From Treponema sp. (GTDB taxonomy: Bacteria; Spirochaetota; Spirochaetia; Treponematales; Breznakiellaceae), in assembly GCA_031267675.1 (NCBI GenBank), contig JAIRYT010000051.1:1-64000 (forward strand): 64,000 nt of DNA, given 5' to 3'. The position numbers and the translations under genes were made by a program. How positions within the stretch are numbered: position 1 is the stretch's first letter; the number at the start of each line of letters is the position of its first letter. The notes under the pieces were generated by a model. It was given only the letters and a program-made list of their open reading frames with translations. It had not been told where the DNA came from and ran no database searches. Shown here piece after piece: positions 18,608-64,000 of this stretch.

Positions 18608-19432
18608 GTGCAATTCCTTCGCGACTTTGAAGCAAAAGAGCAGATTTTAGAAATCGGCCGGCGCATGTACGCCAAAAACTATGTCGCCGCCAATGACGGA
18701 AACATCACCTGTAAAACAGGGCCCGATACGATCTGGGCAACCCCTACCGGTGTTTCCAAAGGTTATATGAAGGCCGAAGAACTTGTTAAGATGCGGCTGG
18801 ACGGAACGGTTATCCAGCAGGGCCCGCTTAAGCCTTCGTCCGAAATAAAAATGCATCTGCGGGTATACAACGAAAATCCCGAAGTGTGCGGCGTCTGCCA
18901 CGCCCATCCGCCGGTGTCAACATCGTTTGCCATTGCGGGAATCAGCCTGGACAGGGCGATTTATCCGGAAGCCCTTGTCAACCTGGGAACGGTTCCCTGT
19001 GTCCATTATGCGGCGCCCGGCTCACAGGGCATTCCCGACTCGGTCGCCCCATATTGTAAAAGCCATAACGCGCTGCTTCTGGCAAACCACGGGGCGCTCG
19101 CCTGGGGTCCGACCCTCCTGGAATCGTGGTACCGGCTTGAATCGGTGGAACATTACGCGATGATTCTTATGTACACCGGAAACATCATCGGCAAAGCCAA
19201 TGTGCTTAGCTGCGATCAGGTGCGCGAACTGGTAAACATCAGGGAAAAGCTCGGCATACGCTCGGGCGGTCTGCCTTCCTGCTGTGTGCCGCAGGCGACA
19301 AACCTGACCGATGTCGGCGGCGCCCAGGCGCTTTGCCTGGCGGACGCGCCGGCCCGGAAAGATGTTTCCGCCGGGGATATAGAGCCGCTTGTCAGGGAAG
19401 TGCTCGCGGCGCTTCTTCCGGCGGCGAAATAA
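18608..19432 (+). CDS. Class II aldolase (fuculose-1-phosphate type) with BMC-like C-terminal peptide
   Basis: 274 residues; GTG start preceded by AGGAG. Zinc ligands of the class II aldolase/adducin fold are present: His98 and His100 (CHAHPP) and His161 (LLANHGAL). The catalytic acid is Glu79 (PSSEIKMH), and the phosphate-binding region is GNITCKTGPDTIWATPTGVSKG. After a linker (LADAPARKDVSAG) the last 18 residues, DIEPLVREVLAALLPAAK, form an amphipathic helix of the kind that targets enzymes into bacterial microcompartments. Candidate substrates are 5-deoxyribulose-1-phosphate, methylthioribulose-1-phosphate or fuculose-1-phosphate, giving DHAP plus an aldehyde. In other bacteria such an aldolase (Ald2) acts after MtnK and MtnA, which are encoded at 27039-29338. 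Confidence 0.85.
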   Translation: MQFLRDFEAKEQILEIGRRMYAKNYVAANDGNITCKTGPDTIWATPTGVSKGYMKAEELVKMRLDGTVIQQGPLKPSSEIKMHLRVYNENPEVCGVCHAHPPVSTSFAIAGISLDRAIYPEALVNLGTVPCVHYAAPGSQGIPDSVAPYCKSHNALLLANHGALAWGPTLLESWYRLESVEHYAMILMYTGNIIGKANVLSCDQVRELVNIREKLGIRSGGLPSCCVPQATNLTDVGGAQALCLADAPARKDVSAGDIEPLVREVLAALLPAAK

Positions 19433-20935: not shown

Positions 20936-21814
20936 TTAAAAGACTTCCCCGGCCAGGGGTATCGCTTCCATGGCGCCTTTCCGGGAAACCGCCAAAGACG
21001 CGGCTTTGGACGCGGCGCGCATGGCATCCCCTACCGAAAGATTTTTACAGCGGGCGGCGATAAAGTAGCCGGTAAAGGTGTCCCCGGCGCCCACCGTATC
21101 GACAACCGGTACGTCAAGAACGGCCGCCTGTTCCCTGATTTTACCGGAACCGTAGTAAGCGCCTTCTTTACCGGCGGTAAGAATAATTTCGGCGCGGGGA
21201 AACCGGCCGGTCAGCTTGTCCAGAACCGCCGGCAGCGCTTCCGCCGGGGCGGACGCCATGGCCGCGCCTTCTATTTCGTTGACAAAAAAAAGATCCACCA
21301 AATCCAGGGGAAGCTCCTCTACCGCCTGCGTATAGGGCGAAGGGTTAAAACAAATCCGCAGTCCCCGCCTTCCCGCCGCCTTCATAATTTCGCCCAAATG
21401 GGATATTTCATTCTGCAGCACAATAAGATCGCCCCGGTCAAAAACTTCGATAACGGCGTGAATTTCTTCCGCCGTAACGGCCCTGTTTCCCCCGCCAAAA
21501 AGAAAAATCCCGTTCTGCCTGTTTTTGTCAATCTGGATAATGGCCTGTCCGGTGGCCCCTTCGTAACGGATTACCTGATCCGTATTGACCCCGTACGAAT
21601 TGAGCAGCGTCAAAAGAAATTCCCCGTCCGCGCCAATCTTTCCCGCCATGTATACCGGAAGCCCCGCCTTTGCCAGAGCTGCGGCCTGATTCGCGCCCTT
21701 TCCCCCGGCGCTCTTTAGAAGGCCGGTGCTGGCGATAGTTTCGCCGGGGGTAACAAGATGATCGACGAAAAAAGTCAGGTCGATATTGATGGAACCAAAA
21801 ACAAGTATTTTCAC
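20936..21814 (-). CDS. Ribokinase-family (PfkB) sugar kinase
   Basis: 292 residues; GTG start with AAGGAG. N-terminal VFGSINIDLTFFVD, sugar-binding GGKGANQAAALAKAG, and the C-terminal catalytic motif DTVGAGDTFTGYF define the ribokinase family. Substrate choice between ribose, 2-deoxyribose and related pentoses cannot be read reliably; the Asn/Asp of SINID are as in ribokinases. Either ribose or deoxyribose would fit: deoxyribose-5-phosphate is the substrate of DeoC, encoded at 59810. It lies directly downstream of the LacI regulator, 46 bases away. Confidence 0.88.
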   Translation of the reverse strand: MKILVFGSINIDLTFFVDHLVTPGETIASTGLLKSAGGKGANQAAALAKAGLPVYMAGKIGADGEFLLTLLNSYGVNTDQVIRYEGATGQAIIQIDKNRQNGIFLFGGGNRAVTAEEIHAVIEVFDRGDLIVLQNEISHLGEIMKAAGRRGLRICFNPSPYTQAVEELPLDLVDLFFVNEIEGAAMASAPAEALPAVLDKLTGRFPRAEIILTAGKEGAYYGSGKIREQAAVLDVPVVDTVGAGDTFTGYFIAARCKNLSVGDAMRAASKAASLAVSRKGAMEAIPLAGEVF

Positions 21815-21860: not shown

Positions 21861-22898
21861 TCATATTTTTTTTACGCTGTCGCGGACAACCAGTTTTCCG
21901 GCGACCAGTATGTTTTCCGGCGCGCTTTCTTTAAAGCTGCTGATGCGCTCCACCACTTTTTCAAGCGCCCGTTCCCCAATTTGGTGATTGGCAACCCGGA
22001 TCGTGGTAAGGGGCGGATCGGGCAGGCTGCTTGAGGGCAGATCGTCAAAACCCACAATGCTCACATCCTCCGGAATGCGGTAATTGTGCTCCTTGAGCGC
22101 CTTCATGCAGGCGTAGGCTATTGTATCGTTCATGCAAAAAAAGGCCGAAGGCTGGGCGCTGTTTTTTTTAAGATATTTATTCATATCCACGATTGCCCGA
22201 TCATAGGCCGGGTCAACGGTAATAATAAATTTTTCCTGGACGGGCAGCGAAAAATAATCCATAGCCTCCCTAAAGCCGAATTCCCGCATGGTAAAATTTC
22301 TGGTGGCAAGCCCTCCCTTGACCAGCCCTATGTTCCGGTGGCCGTTTTTGTACAAATGCTGAATGGCTTTAAAAACTCCGTCCATGTTATCCATGTCGAT
22401 ACAATCATAAACCGAAAAGGGAAAGTACGTGTCAATAAAAACGACCGGTTTTGTAAGTACGGTAAAAAAATCAACTTCATGGGCGTTGAGCTCCGTTCCC
22501 AGAATAATAAGCCCGTCCACGATGGTTTCGCGGTGCGCGTCTATAATTTCTTCTACGGGAACCCGGTTAAAAAACGAAACTTCCAGCTTGTATCCGCGTT
22601 TTTTGGCGGCGGCCTCAATTCCTTCCATGTACTCGGTAATAAACGCGTTATGCCGTTCGTTGACAATATGACCGTGGGTTGCGATTTTTAACAGCTTGAC
22701 GGTGATGCTTTCGTTTGTATCGCTTTGAAGATTTACCGCCGTTTTATAGCCCATGTCCACCGCAATGGCAATAATTTTTTGCCGTACTTCGGCGCTGATT
22801 CCCGGCTTGTTGTTGAGCGCCAGCGATACGGCCGAGGGAGAAACCCTGGCAGCCTTTGCGATGTCGATTATGCGTGCAGCCATTCCTTGGTATACCAT
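21861..22898 (-). CDS. LacI-family transcriptional regulator
   Basis: 345 residues. The helix-turn-helix IIDIAKAARVSPSAVSLALNNKPGISAEVRQKI is followed by a periplasmic-binding-protein-like sensor domain (GLIILGTELNAHEVDFF, NDTIAYACMKALKEHNYRIPEDVSIVGFDD). It should sense a sugar or sugar phosphate and repress the divergent import/catabolism operon. The first ATG (22898) has little Shine-Dalgarno sequence; the second (22883, MAARIID) has AAGGA very close, so the start is uncertain by five residues. It heads the cluster lacI-pfkB-DUF234 ATPase. Confidence 0.92.
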   Translation of the reverse strand: MVYQGMAARIIDIAKAARVSPSAVSLALNNKPGISAEVRQKIIAIAVDMGYKTAVNLQSDTNESITVKLLKIATHGHIVNERHNAFITEYMEGIEAAAKKRGYKLEVSFFNRVPVEEIIDAHRETIVDGLIILGTELNAHEVDFFTVLTKPVVFIDTYFPFSVYDCIDMDNMDGVFKAIQHLYKNGHRNIGLVKGGLATRNFTMREFGFREAMDYFSLPVQEKFIITVDPAYDRAIVDMNKYLKKNSAQPSAFFCMNDTIAYACMKALKEHNYRIPEDVSIVGFDDLPSSSLPDPPLTTIRVANHQIGERALEKVVERISSFKESAPENILVAGKLVVRDSVKKI

Positions 22899-23255: not shown

Positions 23256-24389
23256 ATGAAGAAAATTATTTTTGGCGCCCTTGCGGCACTTCTTGTTTTT
23301 ACCGTCGCGGGATGCGGCGGCGGGTCGACGACGGGTTCCGGCAACGCGGAACTTGACGCCCTGCTTGTCAAATATTTTCCCGATCAAATGAAAGACGGCG
23401 CCGTCAAGATAGCGGTTGTCCGCAACCTTAATGCCGGCGACCATACCCAGCAGTTCCTGGACGGATGCGTATCCGAAGGAGTCGCGATGGGCTTTATTGT
23501 CGACACCTTTGTCACCAACGGCGATAACGCCCAGTGCCAGGAAACCCTGGCCCAGGTGATCCAAAAGGACTATGACGGGATCATTCTTTCCCACGGAGAA
23601 GCGGGCTATACCTACGACGCCCTTAAACCCGCCGTGGACAAGGGTATGAAGGTAGTTACCTTTGACTCGGTTCCCTATCTGAACGGCGACCCCAACGGAA
23701 CCATTCTTACCGGCGTAACCAGTACCGCCCAGGAAGACTATAAGCTTGCCGAACTTTCACTTGCCTCCATAGTGGAGAATTTCCCCGCCAACAGGCAGCC
23801 GATCAAAGTAGTGCGCGCGTGGATGGGCCCCGGCGTTCCTCCCCTGGATCGCCGCCAGACCATTTACGACCGCTATGTCCAGGAAGGAAAGATCGTAGAA
23901 GTGGCTCCGGTAGGCCCGGTAGATTCTTCCAATCCCCGGGGCGGCACCCAGGATTCCTTTGCCGCGGTTCTTCCCCGTTTTGCCCCCGGTTCCGTGGACG
24001 CCATTTGGGGTTCCTATGACGAATTGGCCAAGGGCTGCCTTCAGGCGCTGGATGAAGCGGGCCGCAAGGACATACTGCTTATGTCCATCGATATTTCAAA
24101 CGACGATATCAACCTGATGTTGTCTCATCCGGATGTATGGGTTTCTACCGCCGCGGTCGATCCCAAACTTATCGGCATTGCCGACATGCGGCTTCTTGCC
24201 GCCAAGTTTGCCGGCGAATCAACTCCGGACACCTACAATCTGGACGCCCAGAGCGTAAAGACGACACAGCTTAATTCATCCATCGATATGACCAACATCG
24301 CCACCGTGGTGCCCGGCTGGGGCCAGGAACAGGGCGTATACGACGGTTATGCCTGGATGGCGGAACTTAAAGCGGCCGTTAAAAAATAG
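23256..24389 (+). CDS. Sugar ABC transporter substrate-binding lipoprotein
   Basis: 377 residues. Lipoprotein signal ending FTVAGC (Cys 20ish). The mature protein has the periplasmic sugar-binding fold of the ribose/galactose class (VKIAVVRNLNAGDHTQQFLDGC, DYDGIILSHGEAGYTYDALKPAVDKGMKVVTFDS, VDAIWGSYDELAKGCLQALDEAG). The ligand is not deducible from motifs. The operon also encodes MtnK and MtnA, which suggests 5-methylthioribose, 5-deoxyribose or a related nucleoside sugar. A terminator-like hairpin downstream probably raises its level relative to the ATPase. Confidence 0.9.
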   Translation: MKKIIFGALAALLVFTVAGCGGGSTTGSGNAELDALLVKYFPDQMKDGAVKIAVVRNLNAGDHTQQFLDGCVSEGVAMGFIVDTFVTNGDNAQCQETLAQVIQKDYDGIILSHGEAGYTYDALKPAVDKGMKVVTFDSVPYLNGDPNGTILTGVTSTAQEDYKLAELSLASIVENFPANRQPIKVVRAWMGPGVPPLDRRQTIYDRYVQEGKIVEVAPVGPVDSSNPRGGTQDSFAAVLPRFAPGSVDAIWGSYDELAKGCLQALDEAGRKDILLMSIDISNDDINLMLSHPDVWVSTAAVDPKLIGIADMRLLAAKFAGESTPDTYNLDAQSVKTTQLNSSIDMTNIATVVPGWGQEQGVYDGYAWMAELKAAVKK

Positions 24390-24494: not shown

Positions 24495-26018
24495 GTGGAA
24501 GCGCAGAACAAATCAACCCTGAATATGCGGGATATTTCGATTGAGTTTCCCGGTGTCAAAGCGCTTTCCCATGTTAATTTTAACATGGAAAGCGGCAGGA
24601 TTTACGCCCTTATCGGGGCCAACGGCGCGGGAAAATCAACGCTGATGAAGGTGCTGTCCGGCGTAAACAGCCACTACCGCGGACAGGTTTTAATCAACGG
24701 AAAAGAAGTGGAAATCCGTTCCCCCAAAGCCGCCAAGGAACTGGGTATCGAAATCGTATACCAGGAAGTTGATGTAGCGCTTACCCCTACGCTTTCGGTG
24801 GCGGAAAATATCATGACCAATGTGCTGGTCAATAAAATGGGAAAGAAACAGTTTGTAAACTGGAACAGTCTGCGTAAATCCGCGGGCGAGGCGCTGGCGC
24901 GTCTTGGGGTTGATATCGATGTGCGAAAGCCAGTTTCCGGTTTAAGTCTGGCGGAAAAACAAATGGTGCTCCTGGCCAGCGCCGCCCGCGAACGCTGCAA
25001 ATTTTTGGTTCTTGACGAACCCACCGCCCCGCTTTCCAACACGGAAACAAAAAATCTTTTTAAAGTGGTGCGCGTCCTGGCAAAAGAAGAAAATGTAGGA
25101 ATTGTTTTTATTTCGCACCGGCTGCCGGAACTTTTTGAAATTTGCGAACATATTACGATCATGAGGGATGCCCAGGTGGTAAAAGACATGGACATTACCC
25201 CCGACCTTTCTGTCAATCAGATAATTGAATATATGCTGGGCCGTAAATTTGACGAGGTCTATGAAAAGAAAACCGTCCCCATCGGCAAGGTGCTTTTGGA
25301 GTTAAACAACCTTACCGAGGCGGAAGGCCGTATTAAAAACATCTGTCTTACGGTACGCAGGGGCGAAATCGCGGGAATCGCCGGACTGGTGGGAGCGGGA
25401 AAAACCGAACTTTGCAAAACCATATTCGGCGCGTACCGCAGTTCTTCCGGCGAGGTGCTCCTTGACGGAAAAAATATTACTCCGCGCTCGCCCTTTCAGG
25501 CGGTAAAGCGCGGACTGGCGCTGGTTCCGGAAGAACGGCGTAAAGAAGGAATCATTGTCCTTGATCCGGTATATGCCAATATTACCATTTCCGCCCTGCA
25601 AAAGTTTCTTAATGTGTTCCGCTTTGTCGTCAAACGCCGCCAGATTGCCGTTACCCAAAAAATGATAACGGAACTGGGAATTAAAACCCCCTCGGAAACA
25701 CAAATTCTTGCCAACCTTTCAGGAGGCAACCAGCAAAAAGTAGTCGTGGGAAAATGGCTTGTATCCGACGCGGATGTGTATATTTTTGACGAGCCCGCCA
25801 AGGGAGTTGATGTTGGGGCCAAAAGGGATATCTTTAAACTTATTGAAGATCTGGCCGCTCAGGGCAAGGGGATTATTTACACCTCGTGCGAGTTTTCAGA
25901 GATTATGGCGATTGCCGACAGGGTCTATGTGATGTATGACGGCGAAATTGTTAAAGAAGTAGCGGTGTCACAGTCCAGTGAAAAAGAACTGCTCTATTAT
26001 TCAACCGGAGGTAATTGA
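24495..26018 (+). CDS. Sugar ABC transporter ATP-binding protein (RbsA/MglA type)
   Basis: 507 residues; GTG start. Two fused nucleotide-binding domains, as usual in this class. First: Walker A GANGAGKSTLMK, signature LSLAEKQMV, Walker B FLVLDEPTAPLS. Second: divergent P-loop GLVGAGKTELCKTIFG, strong signature LSGGNQQKVVVGKW, and DVYIFDEPAKGVD. It energises import with the permease at 26015 (4-base overlap). Confidence 0.94.
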   Translation: MEAQNKSTLNMRDISIEFPGVKALSHVNFNMESGRIYALIGANGAGKSTLMKVLSGVNSHYRGQVLINGKEVEIRSPKAAKELGIEIVYQEVDVALTPTLSVAENIMTNVLVNKMGKKQFVNWNSLRKSAGEALARLGVDIDVRKPVSGLSLAEKQMVLLASAARERCKFLVLDEPTAPLSNTETKNLFKVVRVLAKEENVGIVFISHRLPELFEICEHITIMRDAQVVKDMDITPDLSVNQIIEYMLGRKFDEVYEKKTVPIGKVLLELNNLTEAEGRIKNICLTVRRGEIAGIAGLVGAGKTELCKTIFGAYRSSSGEVLLDGKNITPRSPFQAVKRGLALVPEERRKEGIIVLDPVYANITISALQKFLNVFRFVVKRRQIAVTQKMITELGIKTPSETQILANLSGGNQQKVVVGKWLVSDADVYIFDEPAKGVDVGAKRDIFKLIEDLAAQGKGIIYTSCEFSEIMAIADRVYVMYDGEIVKEVAVSQSSEKELLYYSTGGN

Positions 26019-27022
26019 GTATGGGCGCTAAAACCATAAAACAGGATTTAAAAAATAACGCTATTGATTTTATCGCTAAATGGGGCGTGCTCCTGACCAT
26101 TGTTGCTCTGCTTGCCGCGTTTTCGGTTTCCATGCCCTTTTTTAGAACGCTTTCCAATATGATTACCATTATCCGGGCAGTCTGTATTGTCACCATTGTC
26201 GCCATAGGGATGACCTTTGCCCTTACCGTAAACGGCATTGACCTTTCGGTGGGATCGGCGGCGACCATGTCCAATACGGTCTGTATGACATTCTTTATCT
26301 GGTTTTCAATGGGAACCACCATTCCGGGAACCCTGCTGGCAATATTCCTTACCCTGATCATCTCGCTGGCTGTTGCGTCAATAAACGGGTTCCTTATCGT
26401 CAAGTTAAAAATATTCGACATGCTGGCAACGCTGGCAACCATGTTTATGTTCGAAGGGGTTGCCATGACCTATGCCGGCGGCGGAGCGATCAACGAACGT
26501 ATGGTAAAACCGGACGGAACCGCCGCCACCGGCACGGTACCGGTGTTTCTGCGTACAATGGGGCGGGAGCCCTGGATCATTATTATTATGCTGGTGCTGG
26601 TGCTGCTGGCGTTTCTTTTTCTTACCTATACAAAGCACGGTCGTTATATGTACGCGGTCGGCTCCAATATTGAGGCTGCCGGACTTTCCGGTATCAATGT
26701 ACAAAAATACCGCGTCGCAGCCTATGTTTTTAGCGCCGTACTTGCTTCCATTGGCGGCATACTCGTAGGCGCCCGCGTGGGGAACGCCCAGATCAACTCG
26801 GGCTCGCCCTACCTTATGGGAGCGGTGGCGGCGGCCCATATCGGCGTATCGGTCGCCGGCATAGGACGGCCCAACGCGTTTGGCACTTTGGCGGGGGCGT
26901 TTCTTATCGGCGTTCTGGAAAACGGTCTTATTATGGCCTCGGTGCCCTACTATACGGTTAATATTTTTAAGGGCCTTGTACTCGCAATCGCACTGGCCCT
27001 TAATTCGGTACGAAAAAAATAA
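26015..27022 (+). CDS. Sugar ABC transporter permease (RbsC/MglC type)
   Basis: 335 residues with 8-10 hydrophobic segments. VNGIDLSVGSAATMSNTVC is the family hallmark after the second helix; INGFLIVKLKIFDMLATLATMFMFEGVA and YAVGSNIEAAGLSGINVQKYR (the coupling EAA-like loop) follow. It forms the inner-membrane channel with the ATPase encoded just upstream and overlaps that gene by 4 bases. Confidence 0.94.
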   Translation: MSMGAKTIKQDLKNNAIDFIAKWGVLLTIVALLAAFSVSMPFFRTLSNMITIIRAVCIVTIVAIGMTFALTVNGIDLSVGSAATMSNTVCMTFFIWFSMGTTIPGTLLAIFLTLIISLAVASINGFLIVKLKIFDMLATLATMFMFEGVAMTYAGGGAINERMVKPDGTAATGTVPVFLRTMGREPWIIIIMLVLVLLAFLFLTYTKHGRYMYAVGSNIEAAGLSGINVQKYRVAAYVFSAVLASIGGILVGARVGNAQINSGSPYLMGAVAAAHIGVSVAGIGRPNAFGTLAGAFLIGVLENGLIMASVPYYTVNIFKGLVLAIALALNSVRKK

Positions 27023-27038
27023 TCCTAAGGAGGATCCA

Positions 27039-28259
27039 ATGTCTCGCTTTGACAAATACTTTTTAATGAAGGAAGGGGATGTTACCGAATATGTACATTT
27101 CCGTATTCCCCGTTATTTTAACGCCGGCGCGAAAACAAGCGTTAAAGAAATCGGAGACGGCAACCTAAACTATGTATTCCGCGTGGTGGACGATGAAAGC
27201 GGCAAATCGATCATTATCAAGCAGGCGGGGGAACAGCTTCGTATTTCGGCGGAAATGCACATCTCCACCGACCGCAACCGCATTGAGTCGGAAATACTGC
27301 TGCTCCAGGATAAATACGCGCCGGGCCTTGTTCCCAAAATTTTTGAATATGACACGACAATGTGCGCCTGCCTGATGGAAGATTTTTCCGATTACCAGCT
27401 TATGCGCTACGCCCTTATGGAACATAAAACATTTCCCCGCTTTGCCGGCGACATTACCACCTACATGGTAAACACCCTGCTTAACACCACCGACGCGGTA
27501 ATGGAACACAAGGCAAAAAAGGCGCTGGTAAAAAGTTTTATTAATCCCGAACTCTGCGAAATTACCGAGGACCTTGTTTATACCGAGCCGTACAATGACG
27601 CAAAAGGACGGAACATTGTTACGCCGGAAAACCTGGATTTTGTTAAAAAAGAATTATACGAAGACAAGGCCCTTCATCTGGAAGTCGCAAAATTAAAATT
27701 TGATTTTATGAACAACGCCCAGGCGCTGCTTCACGGGGATCTTCATACCGGCTCGATTTTTGTTAAACCCGACTCTACCAAAATTTTTGATCCCGAGTTT
27801 GCTTTTTACGGCCCCATGGGTTACGACATCGGGAACGTGGTCGCCAATCTTTTCTTTGCCTGGGATAACGGAGACGCCGCGGGGAACGGGGCCTTTTGCG
27901 ACTGGGCGCTTAAAACCGCCGCGGAAGTGGTGGATCTTTTTAAAAAAAAGTTCCTGGCGGAATACGCAAAAAAAGCGGGAGACATTATGGCGGCGACAGA
28001 AGGCTTTGCCGAATATTATCTGGACACGATTATTGCCGACACCGCCGCAGGATGCGGCACGGAACTGATACGCCGCACGGTAGGCATGGCCCAGGTAAAA
28101 GATGTTACCGCCATTGCCGACAGGGCAAAGCGCGTACGGGCGGAGCGGATCAATATACGCTGCGCCAAAGACCTTATTATGAACAGGGCCTCTTTTAAAA
28201 CAGGGGATGATTTTACCGCCGCCTTCCAGAGGGCGGTTAAGGAACGGAGCCATACATGA
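27039..28259 (+). CDS. mtnK: S-methyl-5-thioribose kinase (5-deoxyribose kinase candidate)
   Basis: 406 residues from ATG 27039, preceded by AAGGAGG; the longer in-frame extension overlaps the permease gene and is rejected. A protein-kinase-like (choline-kinase) fold with catalytic loop [13 protein letters not shown], metal-binding [16 protein letters not shown] and nucleotide region [15 protein letters not shown] matches MtnK over its full length. It phosphorylates C1 of methylthioribose; homologues in DHAP-shunt operons also use 5-deoxyribose. It overlaps mtnA by 4 bases. Confidence 0.93.
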
Positions 28260-29338
28260 GCAAGAATATACTGTCGATTGATACGGTCGCGCTGGATGAA
28301 GAAAAAAGGGCGCTTAAAATAATCGATCAAACAAAACTTCCCGGCACGGTAGAAATTCTTTACCTGACAAAACAGGAAGAAATTTATGAGGCGATTTACC
28401 TGCTTCGCGTCCGGGGCGCGCCGGCCATCGGCGTCGCTGCGGCAATCGGGATTTATTTGGCCGCGCTGGAAATTACCGATACCGCCTATGATGATTTTTA
28501 CGCAAAGTTTAAAAAAGCAAAGGACTACCTTGACTCGTCGCGGCCCACGGCGGTTAATCTTTCCTGGGCCCTAAAACGCATGGAAAAAGTCGTGCTGGAT
28601 CACAGGGGCGCGGAAAGCGCCGTACTTAAAGAACTGCTCCATGACGAAGCGGTAAAAATCCGCGACGAGGACGTGTGGGTTTGTAAATCACTGGGCGAAT
28701 ACGGACTTTCCCTTATCAAGGACGGAGACGGAATCCTTACCCACTGTAACGCCGGGCAGCTTGCCACGGTAAAATACGGCACCGCCCTGGCCCCGGTACA
28801 TCTTGGCGGCGAAAGAGGCATGAAGTTTAAGGTCTTTTGCGATGAAACCCGTCCCCTGCTGCAGGGCGCGCGGCTTTCTTCATTCGAGATGGTCAGCGCA
28901 GGTATGGACACGACGGTAATCTGCGACAACATGGCAAGCCAGGTAATGAAAAACGGCTGGGTAAAAGCCTGCTTTGTGGGCTGCGACCGCGTGGCCGCCA
29001 ACGGAGACGCGGCCAATAAAATCGGCACATGCGGCGTGGCAATTTTGGCAAAACATTACGGCATTCCTTTTTATGTCTGCGCCCCTACCTCTACCATTGA
29101 TATGTCCGTCAAAGAGGGAAAGGACATCGTTATCGAAGAACGAAAGGGGGAAGAAGTTACCGAAATGTGGTACCGGGAACGAATGGCCCCCCAGGGAGTA
29201 AAGGTTTTTAATCCCGCCTTTGATGTTACCGATCACGATCTTATTGACGCGATAATTACCGAATACGGCATTGTCCGCGCTCCCTACACGGAAGGCTTGA
29301 TAAAAATTTTTGAAGAAAAAGCAAAACAAAACGGGTAG
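28256..29338 (+). CDS. mtnA: S-methyl-5-thioribose-1-phosphate isomerase
   Basis: 360 residues. [18 protein letters not shown], the active-site Cys in [18 protein letters not shown], and the catalytic Asp in [17 protein letters not shown] are the signature of MtnA (eIF2B-like fold). It isomerises the aldose-1-phosphate to methylthioribulose- or 5-deoxyribulose-1-phosphate. The later methionine-salvage genes (mtnB, mtnC, mtnD) are not in the window, but a class II aldolase is encoded at 18608, so a DHAP-shunt outcome is plausible. Confidence 0.95.
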
Positions 29339-59683: not shown

Positions 59684-59764
59684 GCTGTTTTTGCTGTTTT
59701 TGCTGTTTTTGCTGTTTTTGCTGTTTTTGCTGTTTTTGCTGTTTTTGCTGTTTTTGCTGTTTTT
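59684..59764. repeat. Nine perfect copies of a 9-bp tandem repeat
   Basis: The unit GCTGTTTTT is repeated nine times without error, followed by a variant GCGGTTGCC. It lies between the deoC stop and the BMC terminator, i.e. in the 3' untranslated part of the BMC mRNA and ~35 bp upstream of the -35 box of the next operon. Confidence 0.9.
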
Positions 59765-59809
59765 GCGGTTGCCCTTTTAGCCGTTCCTATTCTTCCGTAC
59801 GGGCATGAT

Positions 59810-60586
59810 CTATGGGGAGCGCCGGTCCAGTTCGTTTACCACGGCGAATGTCGCCGACATGCCGATGCGGTCCGCACCCGCCGCCAGTATTTGGAGCGTC
59901 CGTTCCAGGGTTTTAACGCCGCCGTCAATCTTGATCCCTACCGTATCCCCTACAAGACCGCGTACAAAGCGGATGTCGGCTTCTTCGGCCTTTTTTCCGC
60001 TAAGGGCGTTCGAGATTTTTACAAAATCCAGGCCGCATTCCCGAATAAGCGAAAGTACGGTTTTCTTTTCCTCGTCATTGTACAGCGACTGCTCATAAAT
60101 CGCTTTGAGCCGGCAGCCGCCCCGCGCCATGTGCGAAAGTTCCTGCAGTTCACGGCGGGCGGCGTCTGTTTCCCCCGACTTGATCGCCAGCGCATTGACC
60201 GCCACATCCATTTCCGCCGCGCCCCTGCGCATACATTCGCGTAATTCGGCGCTTTTTGCCGCGGCGGAGCAGGCGCCGTGGGGGAAGCCGGCCGCCGAAC
60301 AGACGGCGACGCCGCTTTTAGCCAAAACATGCGCGGCGCAGTCTACATAATAGGGCGACACCACCACCGCGGCGATACCGCAGACTGCGGCAGTTTCGCA
60401 CTCGGCGATAATTTTTTTACGGGTGATCGCCGGATCAAGCAGGGAATGTTCCAGTCTGCCGGATATCTGCCGCGGACGATCCGTCCGCGGAACGCTCAAA
60501 ACAGGCCGGTCGTCTTCAACATAAATGGAGCTGTCCAGCGCCTTGTTGGTCGCTTTGACAATTTCTTCTATTGCGGCGTTATTCAC
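59810..60586 (-). CDS. deoC: Deoxyribose-phosphate aldolase with N-terminal BMC-type extension
   Basis: 258 residues. The aldolase core starts at LEHSLLDP (residue 45). Schiff-base Lys190 (DFVKIS), proton-relay Lys219 (VGIKIDGGVK) and Asp127 (AEMDVAVNALAI) are all present; the usual KTSTG is altered to KISNA. It cleaves deoxyribose-5-phosphate to glyceraldehyde-3-phosphate plus acetaldehyde. Residues 1-20 (MNNAAIEEIVKATNKALDSS) form an amphipathic helix, followed by a linker absent from free DeoC proteins, the architecture of an encapsulation peptide. It overlaps the EutN gene by 4 bases and is last in the BMC operon. Confidence 0.9.
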   Translation of the reverse strand: MNNAAIEEIVKATNKALDSSIYVEDDRPVLSVPRTDRPRQISGRLEHSLLDPAITRKKIIAECETAAVCGIAAVVVSPYYVDCAAHVLAKSGVAVCSAAGFPHGACSAAAKSAELRECMRRGAAEMDVAVNALAIKSGETDAARRELQELSHMARGGCRLKAIYEQSLYNDEEKKTVLSLIRECGLDFVKISNALSGKKAEEADIRFVRGLVGDTVGIKIDGGVKTLERTLQILAAGADRIGMSATFAVVNELDRRSP

Positions 60587-60882
60587 GGGGTTGCTCCCTT
60601 TTGCCTGGGCGGAGTTCCAATGGTAACGCTGTCAAGGACTCCGCAAATGGTATAGTCGGCGATAAGTTCGCGGTCGCCGGTAAACATGTTGGCCGCGCCG
60701 CCGTCGATATTTACCAACACCGTGTCTCCGATTCCCGCATCGGCGGCGTCAAGGGCAATCTGCCGCGCGCCGTCGGGAGATCCGTCGGGGTTTACAAATT
60801 CGACAATCATCAACTTATAGCCGTGAAAACCCCTGTCCTTAACCGTAGACACCAGGTTTCCAACAACTTTTGCGATCTTCAA
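60583..60882 (-). CDS. BMC pentameric vertex protein (EutN/CcmL family), copy 1
   Basis: 99 residues. MKIAKVVGNLVSTVKDRGFHGYKLMIVEF and GIGDTVLVNIDGGAANMF are the EutN/CcmL fold signature; GxGDxVLV is conserved. Pentamers close the vertices of the polyhedral shell. It lies between the BMC-H gene and deoC, with a 28-base gap and a 4-base overlap respectively. Confidence 0.92.
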   Translation of the reverse strand: MKIAKVVGNLVSTVKDRGFHGYKLMIVEFVNPDGSPDGARQIALDAADAGIGDTVLVNIDGGAANMFTGDRELIADYTICGVLDSVTIGTPPRQKGATP

Positions 60883-60910: not shown

Positions 60911-61180
60911 TTATTTGGGGAGTATCCCTTCAACATCGTCATGGGGAGAAGGAATCACATGGAGTCCGTAGAGTTCTCCTACTGTTTTGGCCGCCGCCGC
61001 TCCCGCGTCAACCGCCGCTTTGACCGCGCCGGTGTCGCCGCGTACCATTACGGTTACCAGTCCGCTGCCAATCTGTTCCTTGCCGATAAGGCGCACATTG
61101 GCCGCCTTGACCATGGCGTCCGCCGCTTCAATCGCGCCGATAAGGCCCCTGGTTTCTACCAGTCCCAACGCTTCTTTCAT
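60911..61180 (-). CDS. BMC-H hexameric shell protein, copy 1
   Basis: 89 residues: single BMC domain with [26 protein letters not shown], pore loop around GSGLVTVMV, and [32 protein letters not shown] (PduA/EutM/CsoS1 type). It forms shell facets with a small central pore. It is nearly identical to copy 2 at 61471 through the first 85 residues, indicating recent duplication. AGGAGG precedes the ATG. Confidence 0.95.
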
Positions 61181-61203: not shown

Positions 61204-61470
61204 CTACAACGCTTCGTTGTAGCTGTCAATAAAACCTACAATCGCCGCGTCCACCGGGCATAAATCCTGGCGGAACATTTTTGCGGCTTCCTTTGATCCG
61301 ATAAGGTATACAAAATCATCCGGGCCGGCCTGGCGGGTCGAATCGGCGGCGACAATCGTAGCGCCTTCTTTTCCGTTCTCCAGCACCTTTACGGCAAGAA
61401 GGGGAATATTCGCCAGATGCGGTTCCTTAATGCTGGCAACTACCGTTCCGGTAACTCTGCCGGTATACAC
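61204..61470 (-). CDS. BMC pentameric vertex protein (EutN/CcmL family), copy 2
   Basis: 88 residues: [31 protein letters not shown], then [28 protein letters not shown] and [13 protein letters not shown], the typical EutN sequence. It differs clearly from copy 1, so the shell has two kinds of vertex protein. It abuts the upstream BMC-H gene with no gap. Confidence 0.92.
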
Positions 61471-61773
61471 CTATTTTTTCCCCTGGCCTTCCGCCTGAGC
61501 CGGAATCGAAGGAAGGATTCCTTCGACGTCATTATGCGGCCGGGGAATAACGTGCAGACCATAGAGGTTGCCCACCCGTTTTGCCGCTTCCGCGCCGGCG
61601 TCGACTGCCGCTTTGACCGCGCCGACATCGCCCCGGACCATAACGGTTACCAGTCCCGAACCAATCTGCTGCTTTCCTACAAGCACCACATTGGCCGCCT
61701 TTACCATGGCGTCGGCCGCTTCAATCGCGCCGATAAGACCCTTGGTTTCTACCATTCCCAATGCTTCCTTCAT
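61471..61773 (-). CDS. BMC-H hexameric shell protein, copy 2
   Basis: 100 residues. Same BMC-H domain as copy 1 ([49 protein letters not shown]) with a C-terminal extension [12 protein letters not shown]. The differing position-38-to-42 surroundings (KQQIGSG versus KEQIGSG) leave the pore loop unchanged, so the two may form mixed facets. Confidence 0.95.
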
Positions 61774-61858: not shown

Positions 61859-62407
61859 TTACAGAATTGCCTCCGCGATTTTTTTATGGGGCGACGGAAT
61901 TATTACACTCGCGCCAAGCATTCCCTGTATTTCTTCCACCGCTTCTGCCGCCCGGACAGCCGATTCAACGGCGGCGACCTCGCCGGTAAACAGTACAAAG
62001 GCCTTTCCGCCAAGGCCCCGGCCCAGGCGTACTTCGACAAGCTGTACCGGCGCGGCCTTTACCGCGGCATCCGAGGCGGTAACCGCCGCGCATAACGAGT
62101 ACGATTCCATTACGCCCAGCGCCTCAACCTTTTCTATTTCGCCTGCGGCGTTAATCGCCGGCGCAACCTGTTCATGAATCCCCGCTATAACCAGTGAATC
62201 TACCAGCGTGGAACCGGCCGCTTCTTTACCCGCCTCTACCGACGAACGCACCGAAGAAACTTCGCCTTCGACTACGACAATGTATTTTCCCGCGCAGACA
62301 GCCTGACTGGTAACAAGATCCACTCCGGCGGCTTTTAACATCGCGTCCGCGGCAAATATTCCCAGCGGTATCGACATGGTTTCTATCATTCCCAGCGCGT
62401 TTTTCAT
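61859..62407 (-). CDS. pduT: BMC-T tandem shell protein, PduT-like with Fe-S pore Cys
   Basis: 182 residues, two BMC domains in tandem (ALGMIETMSIPLGIFAADAML and ALGVMESYSLCAAVTASDAAV) ending SVIIPSPHKKIAEAIL. Cys38 (SQAVCAGKY) is at the position that in PduT binds a [4Fe-4S] cluster at the trimer pore, so it can pass electrons through the shell, matching the PduS-like protein encoded by the overlapping upstream gene. Confidence 0.92.
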   Translation of the reverse strand: MKNALGMIETMSIPLGIFAADAMLKAAGVDLVTSQAVCAGKYIVVVEGEVSSVRSSVEAGKEAAGSTLVDSLVIAGIHEQVAPAINAAGEIEKVEALGVMESYSLCAAVTASDAAVKAAPVQLVEVRLGRGLGGKAFVLFTGEVAAVESAVRAAEAVEEIQGMLGASVIIPSPHKKIAEAIL

Positions 62408-63747
62408 AGAGTATGCTCCGCCTGTATTTCGATATGGTCATTTGATACCGCGCTTATCACGCCGTCAATAGAAGCGTGAATGGGCGCTCCCAATCCGTCG
62501 CTTTGGGCGATAAGCGCTCCTTTTTTTACCGCCGTCCCCGCCGTTACGACCGGCCTGCAGGGAACGCCTATATGCATCTTGAGCGGAATTTTTACGCGGG
62601 GAACTTTTACGGAAAAGGGAACAAGGGGCGCGTTCCTGTTATAGCGCCCAAGATCAAGCCGCGCAACCAAACGGGCAACCGGCACTTTTTTATTGTCGAT
62701 TCCCGCGTCAACAGGACGCAGGCTTTCTTTTTGCGGTTTAATTCCCTGGGCCGCGAGTTCCCTTTTAAAATTCCCCATAATTACGTGGGGGGCAAGGCCA
62801 AAGTTGCACGCAAAGTACGAGCACAGGCCGCACTCACAACAGGAAAAAATACTGTTCATATTGTCCAGCAGTTTTCCCCGCTCCGCGGAAAGCGCGCGCA
62901 TGGCCTTGTGCGGCGACACGTTAAGGCCCAGCGCGGATCGCGGACAAAGCTGCGTGCAAAGCGAACACTGGCAGCATACCGCCTTTGCCATTTTTGCCTG
63001 ACGCGAAATATCAATTGTTTTATAGTAAACAAGTTTATGCGTTTTGGGAAACGGAATAATCCCGCCGGTTGTTTTGGTAACGCCTTCGTCAAGATTTTTT
63101 GCGCTGACGCCCATTAACGGCCCGCCAAGAATTATATGATAGTCGTCCTCTCCGCCGGATTCAAAACCTCCGGCTGCCTCGATAAGGGACGAAAGCGGCG
63201 TGCCGATGGGAACTTCCACGGTAACGGGATTTTTTACCGCGCCGCTTACGGTAAGCACCTTGTCCGTTACCGGCTTTCCGTCCAGCGCGGCGCCGATATT
63301 AACAAGCGTCGCCGTGTTACAGACAACACAGCCGACATCATGCGGAAGGCCGCCTGCCGGTATGATCCGTCCGCTTACCTCGTGAATAAGGGTGCGCTCA
63401 TCGCCCGAAGGGTAGGTGCTTTTTAGTAAATGAAGTTTTATGGCGGTTCCCTCCGCAGCCCTGCGAAGCGCGGCGACCGAAGCGTGGTAATGGCTTTTTG
63501 TGGCGATTACCACATTTGCGGCTCCCAGCGCACGGGCGGAGGCAAGCAGGGCCCGGACAATGTCCGGCGCTTTTGTTTCCATAAGCCGCTGATCGCTTTG
63601 CAGCAGGGGTTCGCATTCGGCGCCGTTGGCAACAAGGTAGGCGTCGCCGAAATCCCCGCCGGCCGGGGCAAGTTTAAAGCAGGTGGGAAAACCCGCTCCC
63701 CCCGCGCCGACTATGCCCGCATCACGGACCAGATCAATAAAACTCAT
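62404..63747 (-). CDS. pduS: PduS-like flavo-iron-sulfur protein (RnfC family)
   Basis: 447 residues. An N-terminal SLBB/RnfC-like NADH- and FMN-binding region (GIVGAGGAGFPTCFKL, VANGAECEPLL, GGLPHDVGCVVCNTATL), then two 4Fe-4S motifs (CCQCSLCTQLCP and CCECGLCSYFACN), and a C-terminal barrel-sandwich segment (GVPCRPVVTAGTAVKKGALIAQSDGLGAPIHASIDG). In Pdu compartments PduS handles electron transfer for cofactor recycling. It overlaps pduT and the pduP-like gene by 4 bases each. Confidence 0.94.
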   Translation of the reverse strand: MSFIDLVRDAGIVGAGGAGFPTCFKLAPAGGDFGDAYLVANGAECEPLLQSDQRLMETKAPDIVRALLASARALGAANVVIATKSHYHASVAALRRAAEGTAIKLHLLKSTYPSGDERTLIHEVSGRIIPAGGLPHDVGCVVCNTATLVNIGAALDGKPVTDKVLTVSGAVKNPVTVEVPIGTPLSSLIEAAGGFESGGEDDYHIILGGPLMGVSAKNLDEGVTKTTGGIIPFPKTHKLVYYKTIDISRQAKMAKAVCCQCSLCTQLCPRSALGLNVSPHKAMRALSAERGKLLDNMNSIFSCCECGLCSYFACNFGLAPHVIMGNFKRELAAQGIKPQKESLRPVDAGIDNKKVPVARLVARLDLGRYNRNAPLVPFSVKVPRVKIPLKMHIGVPCRPVVTAGTAVKKGALIAQSDGLGAPIHASIDGVISAVSNDHIEIQAEHTL

Positions 63748-64000
63748 ACGATTCTAAAATCCCCGTAAAGCACGCAGCGCCGGGAGCGGGTAAAGGAACG
63801 CGCCGATGTAAGTCCTTCGCCGGTGGGCGTGGCAATGGTAAGTGTCGCGTATCCTTCGCCGGAAAACCCAAGCCCCGAATAGGAAGGAGCGTTTTTTACA
63901 AATATGGTTGTATTAAGCATGCGCGCGGCCTGGCTCATGTTTTTAATATTGGTAGAATGAATCAGCGCCGAATGGCGGCATCCCTGTTCCGCGTGCAGCG
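63744..64000 (-). CDS. pduP: CoA-acylating aldehyde dehydrogenase (PduP/EutE-like), C-terminal part
   Basis: Partial: the gene continues beyond 64000. The 85 visible residues (LHAEQGCRHSALIHSTN, TTIFVKNAPSYSGLGFSGEG, TLTIATPTGEGLTSARSFTR, RRCVL) match the C-terminus of PduP/EutE aldehyde dehydrogenases, which turn acetaldehyde or propionaldehyde plus CoA and NAD into acyl-CoA. The catalytic Cys lies outside the window. It is the core enzyme expected in an aldehyde-handling BMC. Confidence 0.93.
   Translation of the reverse strand, partial: LHAEQGCRHSALIHSTNIKNMSQAARMLNTTIFVKNAPSYSGLGFSGEGYATLTIATPTGEGLTSARSFTRSRRCVLYGDFRIV

Follow-up and report, generated by a model that had tools for sequence, protein, structure and literature searches.

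5-Deoxyribose and methylthioribose are by-products of S-adenosylmethionine (SAM). They can be salvaged through the DHAP shunt, which runs either via DrdK, DrdI, and DrdA or via MtnK, MtnA, and an aldolase, and yields DHAP together with acetaldehyde or, from methylthioribose, methylthioacetaldehyde (PMC6079011, PMC10986504). Class II aldolases are also known from microcompartments (BMCs). The PVM and GRM5 types encapsulate fuculose/rhamnulose aldolases (PMC8217296, PMC4207490), the PVM-like and MIC4 loci of gut bacteria, which include class II aldolases, are thought to be similar (PMC8156839), and the class II aldolase of ACI compartments bears an encapsulation peptide (EP) at its C terminus (PMC8217296). 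Such peptides are helices of 15–20 residues in which hydrophobic and polar pairs alternate, and a flexible linker connects them to one end of the cargo (PMC8217296, PMC12108088). Cargo may be encoded away from the shell genes: an EP-bearing DeoC lies elsewhere in some HO-type genomes, and the ACI aldehyde dehydrogenase (AldDH) is found in a satellite locus (PMC8217296).

A Class II Aldolase Beside Methylthioribose Genes

The window analyzed here is a stretch of 64,000 nucleotides, the first 64,000 of the 76,658 bases of contig C105 in a treponeme genome that is 88% complete. On its forward strand, positions 18608–19432 encode a class II aldolase of 274 aa with a GTG start and an AGGAG-type ribosome site upstream. 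The Pfam Aldolase_II match (4.7e-46) spans residues 11–186 only, and the assumed metal ligands (E79, H98, H100, and H161) are invariant in 74 homologs. No NCBIfam equivalog exceeded its cut-off for this protein, and the FucA equivalog models fell far short of theirs (TIGR01086: 63 vs. 400 bits). The best fold matches were 6voq (YgbL) and 6btg/6btd (DrdA of B. thuringiensis), with TM-target values of 0.90–0.91; FucA-like structures were also among the best matches, and the scores of DrdA and FucA structures differ little. Because neither sequence nor fold can tell an aldolase for deoxyribulose from one for fuculose, the substrate assignment rests on gene context. No second class II aldolase matching this one at 1e-10 was detected in its own (88% complete) genome.

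Downstream of the aldolase follow, on the reverse strand, genes for an ATPase, a PfkB/ribokinase-like kinase (20936–21814; PF00294 1.5e-48, TIGR02152 below its cut-off), and a LacI-type regulator recognized from its translation (21861–22898). Next, on the forward strand, comes a sugar ABC transporter made up of a substrate-binding protein (23256–24389; PF13407) that accompanies the aldolase and mtn genes in relatives, an ATPase (24495–26018; two PF00005 stretches), and a permease (26015–27022; PF02653). The series ends, still on the forward strand, with MtnK, a 5-methylthioribose (5-deoxyribose) kinase (26880–28259; TIGR01767 410.7 bits, cut-off 275), and MtnA, a methylthioribose-1-phosphate isomerase (28256–29338; TIGR00512 404.8 bits, cut-off 279). 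The true start of MtnK is probably at about 27066; the TIGR01767 match begins at residue 64 of the open reading frame. The relatives G013, G232, and G233 have these genes in a compact series, aldolase-transporter-MtnK-MtnA, and MtnA is present in 15 of the 16 checked genomes with this aldolase, the one without it being 71% complete. As in the DHAP shunt, an MtnK/DrdK-type kinase, an MtnA/DrdI-type isomerase, and a class II aldolase share one neighborhood, and some known clusters likewise include a sugar transporter; unlike in the described shunt, the aldolase of the window carries a tail that resembles a shell-targeting peptide, and shell genes are linked to it in many relatives.

The first-pass annotation had set the enzyme against plain fuculose-phosphate aldolases, which it described as ending without such a tail. 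An L-fuculose- or L-rhamnulose-phosphate aldolase that yields lactaldehyde would agree with the class II fold and the FucA-like structures among the best matches, and has precedents as cargo in PVM and GRM5 (PMC8217296, PMC4207490). However, neither an isomerase nor a kinase for fucose or rhamnose was seen next to the gene, whereas MtnK and MtnA, both above curated cut-offs, are in its neighborhood; the presence of MtnA in 15 of 16 genomes and the low scores of the FucA models also argue against this substrate, which we consider unlikely. Assignment as FucA was rejected on the curated cut-offs and the gene context. A fuculose substrate is probably wrong, as the mtnK and mtnA neighbors indicate 5-deoxyribose or methylthioribose, and the enzyme is probably a 5-deoxyribulose/5-methylthioribulose-1-phosphate aldolase.

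A C-Terminal Helix Resembling an Encapsulation Peptide

The last 18 residues of the aldolase (residues 257–274, positions 19376–19429), DIEPLVREVLAALLPAAK, form a predicted EP-like helix that is preceded by a linker (residues 237–256, positions 19316–19375) of variable length. In an AlphaFold2 model built from a 74-sequence alignment (mean pLDDT 93), the class II aldolase core is followed by the linker, where confidence is low (pLDDT about 54 at residues 241–250), and by a separate, confident helix at residues 255–273. This model replaced an earlier one from 16 sequences, with a mean pLDDT of 51, which was dropped. The reading of the open reading frame and the model both bear out the earlier description of a C-terminal helix after a linker, with small corrections: the interval given for it, 19375–19432, holds the last 18 residues but starts one base early and takes in the stop codon, and the linker, described as Pro/Ala-rich, is Ala-rich with a single Pro.

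A helix is predicted and is conserved in the family, but the hydrophobic moment of this single tail is 0.46 (shuffle p = 0.07), so that its amphipathicity alone does not go beyond chance. We rate the tail as more than chance because of the contrast in conservation across ten tailed family members, in which pairwise identity is 55% in the helix vs. 23% in the preceding linker. The arrangement of a short terminal helix after a flexible linker, amphipathic with the p-value of 0.07 just given, is that of the encapsulation peptides of PduP, PduD, PduL, and CcmN type; it differs from these in that the aldolase tail is C-terminal and its targeting role is putative.

The BMC Locus and Its Distance From the Aldolase

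The BMC shell genes found in the 88% complete genome, with four domains matching PF00936 and three proteins matching PF03319, are all on contig C105, in a single locus that spans position 59810 to about C105:67322 and thus runs past the end of the window. Within the window the locus lies on the reverse strand and encodes, in order of position, DeoC2, a deoxyribose-phosphate aldolase with the N-terminal EP-like helix NNAAIEEIVKATNKALDSS (59810–60586; TIGR00126 149.7 bits, above cut-off); a BMC-P pentamer of the EutN/CcmL family (60583–60882; PF03319 7.6e-22); a BMC-H shell protein (60911–61180; PF00936 5.2e-28); a second BMC-P pentamer (61204–61470; PF03319 7.3e-16); a second BMC-H protein (61471–61773; PF00936 6e-29); a PduT-like BMC-T shell protein (61859–62407; two PF00936 stretches, TIGR02526 below its cut-off); a PduS/RnfC-like electron-transfer protein (62404–63747; TIGR01945 above cut-off); and an acylating AldDH that is cut by the window end (63744–64000; NF011927 631.7 bits, above cut-off), the whole gene of which occupies C105:63744–65174 in locus L035. 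Beyond the AldDH, the open reading frames of L035 encode BMC-P at C105:65167–65478, PduL, and DeoC1, which also exceeds the TIGR00126 cut-off, and then a DeoR-type regulator, LsrF, and LsrK. The locus therefore holds a metabolosome core of acylating AldDH, PTAC (PduL), BMC-H, and BMC-P, and its own cargo carries N-terminal helices comparable to the aldolase tail.

From the aldolase to the nearest BMC gene (59810) the distance is 40.4 kb on the same contig, as the first-pass annotation had stated (40 kb). In the relative G233 the aldolase is 60–66 kb from either contig end and the BMC is on another contig; as the gene is far from both ends, an assembly join is unlikely to be the cause of the distance. 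The annotation had added that cargo so remote would be missed by locus-based surveys. Surveys limited to 10 kb around shell genes would indeed overlook the aldolase, both in the window and in one or more Paenibacillus chromosomes, but the principle of remote cargo is not new, being documented for other BMC types (PMC8217296). A parallel in this respect is the HO microcompartment with a remote DeoC, where the aldolase likewise has an EP-like end and is encoded apart from the shell genes (PMC8217296), but there the enzyme is a class I DeoC with an N-terminal extension, whereas the enzyme of the window belongs to class II and has its tail at the C terminus. Such cargo can be found from the tail alone.

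In Paenibacillus faecalis (G248, L112), a tailed aldolase is part of an mtn operon at position 4.19 Mb of its contig; the shell genes closest to it are at positions 0.51 and 1.56 Mb of that contig, over 1 Mb away.

The Tail Follows Shell Genes Across Homologs

Eighty homologous aldolase loci were collected from named genomes, and 79 of them have a complete gene. Tails were classed by their extension past the core as long (at least 41 residues) or short (at most 31 residues), and an aldolase was counted as shell-flanked when shell genes were present within the fetched flanks of up to 10 kb per side. All 34 shell-flanked aldolases among the 79 complete homologs are in the long-tail class, whereas shell genes were found in the flanks of none of the 33 untailed ones (0/33), which supports the earlier reading of the tail as similar to a BMC targeting peptide. 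Since mtnA or mtnK flank 24 of the untailed homologs, the tail follows the shells and not the metabolic operon.

Under a rule that combines length and hydrophobic moment, 33 of the 34 shell-flanked copies are tailed (L155 is just under the moment threshold; table 33/13/1/32), and the association of tail and flanking shell genes has a Fisher p of 2e-10, with kinship ignored. By the same rule, 43 tailed copies come from genomes with a BMC at any position and 3 from genomes without one, and the untailed copies divide into 13 with and 20 without (p = 4e-7). A core-domain tree requires 12 or more changes of the tail; in six well-supported independent pairs, shell genes agree with the tail in 5.2 on average and oppose it in none. 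To the extent that these data allow, the association thus holds when phylogeny is considered, although the median sign-test p of 0.06 stays above 0.05.

These data also bear on whether the tail might be an oligomerization or regulatory helix of an aldolase subfamily, with no part in targeting. A terminal helix can pack onto its own enzyme, and the N-terminal helix of PduE has been shown not to target (PMC12108088). Against this, close homologs that lack the helix keep their mtn neighbors (24 loci), which implies that the enzyme works without it, and the helix tracks shell genes while the linker before it is poorly conserved. We regard a role of this kind as very unlikely.

The tail is, as expected of an encapsulation peptide, present with shell linkage and absent in non-BMC homologs, with exceptions at the genome level. 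Three tailed homologs come from genomes in which no BMC genes were detected, namely G020 (91% complete), G246, and G255. The case that the first-pass annotation had named as refuting its reading, a tail kept by relatives that lack a BMC, is seen in these three homologs only. G255 is a Christensenella with a single-contig chromosome and no PF00936 genes; its tailed aldolase (L124) is possibly a relic or has another role. Three further tailed, BMC-negative treponeme genomes are 62–72% complete, and two of these have BMC-positive congeners. Nearly all of the treponeme genomes compared are fragmented and incomplete. Within the family, the tailed aldolase is present in all eight genomes that share the same BMC core genes (G000, G001, G006, G013, G043, G059, G232, and G233), and G048 and G005 have neither BMC nor tail. 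In G158 the BMC is of another kind and the aldolase lacks the tail, and G047 has no BMC, yet a different helical tail.

The exceptions would suit a scenario in which the tail is a relic of ancestral BMC cargo that became cytosolic when the genes separated, its helix now neutral or slowly decaying: tailed copies in G020, G246, and G255 suggest that a tail can outlast its shell. A relic would, however, be expected to lose the contrast between helix and linker, and this contrast (55% vs. 23%) is seen in relatives with the aldolase apart from the shell genes. Apart from the BMC-negative genomes, moreover, all these relatives retain the DeoC-type shell. A relic thus appears improbable for the window. 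We consider it likely, from sequence comparison, that the tail serves as an encapsulation peptide for an aldolase encoded far from its shell.

Relation to mtn-Type Loci

In 20 loci (19 from Bacillota/Synergistota and one from a treponeme), mtnA and/or mtnK, a tailed aldolase, and shell genes all lie within 10 kb, and in most of these mtn-type loci AldDH and PduL are within 10 kb as well. They form two lineages by their AldDH. In the first (Lacrimispora, Anaerocolumna, Paenibacillus, and Proteocatella) the AldDH is just 44–51% identical to that of the window, whereas in the second (the treponeme G043, several Oscillospiraceae, Lachnospiraceae, and other Clostridia) identity is 61–73%. The window AldDH clusters with those of the second lineage in a clade of 16 rows (SH-aLRT 100; tree without SPU AldDH), and the order PduL-BMC-P-AldDH-PduS-PduT-BMC-H-BMC-P-BMC-P in the window locus is also that of the fullest loci of this lineage and of the mtn-type loci of G043, L113, L126, and L161.

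The window genome and six relatives share the core PduL-BMC-P-AldDH-PduS-PduT-BMC-H with the mtn-type loci but have the mtn/aldolase module elsewhere, and DeoC1 is upstream of PduL, where mtn-type loci have the aldolase or mtnA. The simplest reading is that, at the shell locus, DeoC enzymes replaced the mtn/aldolase module, which may have moved away with its tag kept.

A compact locus is present in the cultured strains Lacrimispora celerecrescens, Anaerocolumna aminovalerica, Proteocatella sphenisci, and Paenibacillus dendritiformis, which makes the idea of a DHAP-shunt compartment directly testable.

A Possible DHAP-Shunt Microcompartment

The C-terminal peptide probably directs the enzyme to the interior of the BMC whose genes lie 40 kb off; targeting, substrate, and flux direction are here predicted from the sequences. 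The ABC transporter would import 5-deoxyribose or methylthioribose, which MtnK could phosphorylate and MtnA isomerize in the cytosol. As no EP-like end was found on MtnK or MtnA, only the aldehyde-releasing step would take place inside the shell, where cleavage of the product by the tagged aldolase may give DHAP plus either acetaldehyde or methylthioacetaldehyde. The acylating AldDH and PduL would convert the aldehyde to acetyl-CoA and then to acetyl-phosphate, and PduS may help in cofactor re-oxidation. The same shell would be fed by the EP-tagged DeoC enzymes, which could release acetaldehyde from deoxyribose-5-phosphate; because the DeoC and aldolase routes both give acetaldehyde, a single set of core enzymes can handle the two inputs. 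The aldolase would then be a second front end that has become detached, at the level of its genes, from the shell locus.

More generally, anaerobes of the Bacillota, Synergistota, and Spirochaetota may share a widespread DHAP-shunt type of microcompartment that encapsulates a 5-deoxyribulose/methylthioribulose-1-phosphate aldolase and handles SAM by-products; in one treponeme group DeoC would have taken over the shell core, with the remote tagged aldolase still feeding the shell, giving two acetaldehyde inputs. We see the chances for and against this wider proposal as evenly balanced. It would tie the disposal of radical-SAM waste to a bacterial organelle.

Comparison With Known Compartment Types

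The SPU microcompartment resembles the window locus in its combination of DeoC and AldDH with shell genes, in the PduL of most SPU loci, and in acetaldehyde as the presumed intermediate (PMC8217296, PMC4207490). DeoC (pfam01791) is encoded in the window (DeoC2) and just beyond it (DeoC1). However, RpiB (pfam02502) is common to all SPU subtypes and is absent from the BMC locus of the window genome, in which it occurs only on contigs C60 and C109 and not on C105. Assignment of the BMC as SPU was rejected on the absence of RpiB from the locus. The AldDH groups with mtn-type loci in a tree that contained no SPU AldDH.

With PVM, PVM-like, GRM5, MIC4, and ACI compartments the system shares a class II aldolase as signature enzyme and, in the case of ACI, the C-terminal EP (PMC8217296, PMC8156839). 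In PVM and GRM5 the fuculose/rhamnulose aldolase is the signature enzyme within the shell locus, whereas the aldolase here is 40 kb off, beside mtn genes. The substrates proposed for the five types are fucose/rhamnose or unknown, and no mention of mtnK or mtnA was found in the main texts on these types. The mtn-type loci described here may be identical with some of the PVM-like or MIC4 loci, perhaps already cataloged without their mtn genes having been noticed.

The open literature on the DHAP shunt that we searched does not mention microcompartments, and in the open literature searched no compartment was linked to 5-deoxyribose or methylthioribose. Microcompartment and methylthioribose appeared together there only in an unrelated review and in a passing mention for Acetobacterium woodii of a kinase gene adjoining the pdu cluster, which was called unrelated. 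Remote cargo and EP-bearing aldolases are thus known in principle, and the link between BMC and DHAP shunt was not found in this literature. The finding suggests a substrate class for some class II aldolase microcompartments that have been assumed to use fucose/rhamnose or left unassigned.

Additional Features of the BMC Loci

Inverted repeats were listed for the upstream regions of the transporter/mtn genes and the BMC genes in a search for a common operator, and none was evidently shared. A short tandem repeat with the unit TTTTTGCTG occupies positions 59686–59770, between an MglB-like gene and DeoC2. Adjoining the BMC locus, C105:68242–71100 (L035:5242–8100) encodes a small cupin and two enzymes that score above curated cut-offs, the thiolase LsrF and an autoinducer-2 kinase. 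The BMC loci of G001, G232, and G233 (L167, L174, and L176) have three DeoC paralogs each, mostly with EP-like N-termini (MDINEIVKEVT, MNVNEII, and IDKELIEKITREVLEQI). DeoC1 of the window genome (C105:66438–67322, L035:3438–4322, reverse strand) and of six relatives has a conserved ferredoxin-like C-terminal extension with the motif CxxCxxCxxxCP, an unusual addition for a deoxyribose-phosphate aldolase.
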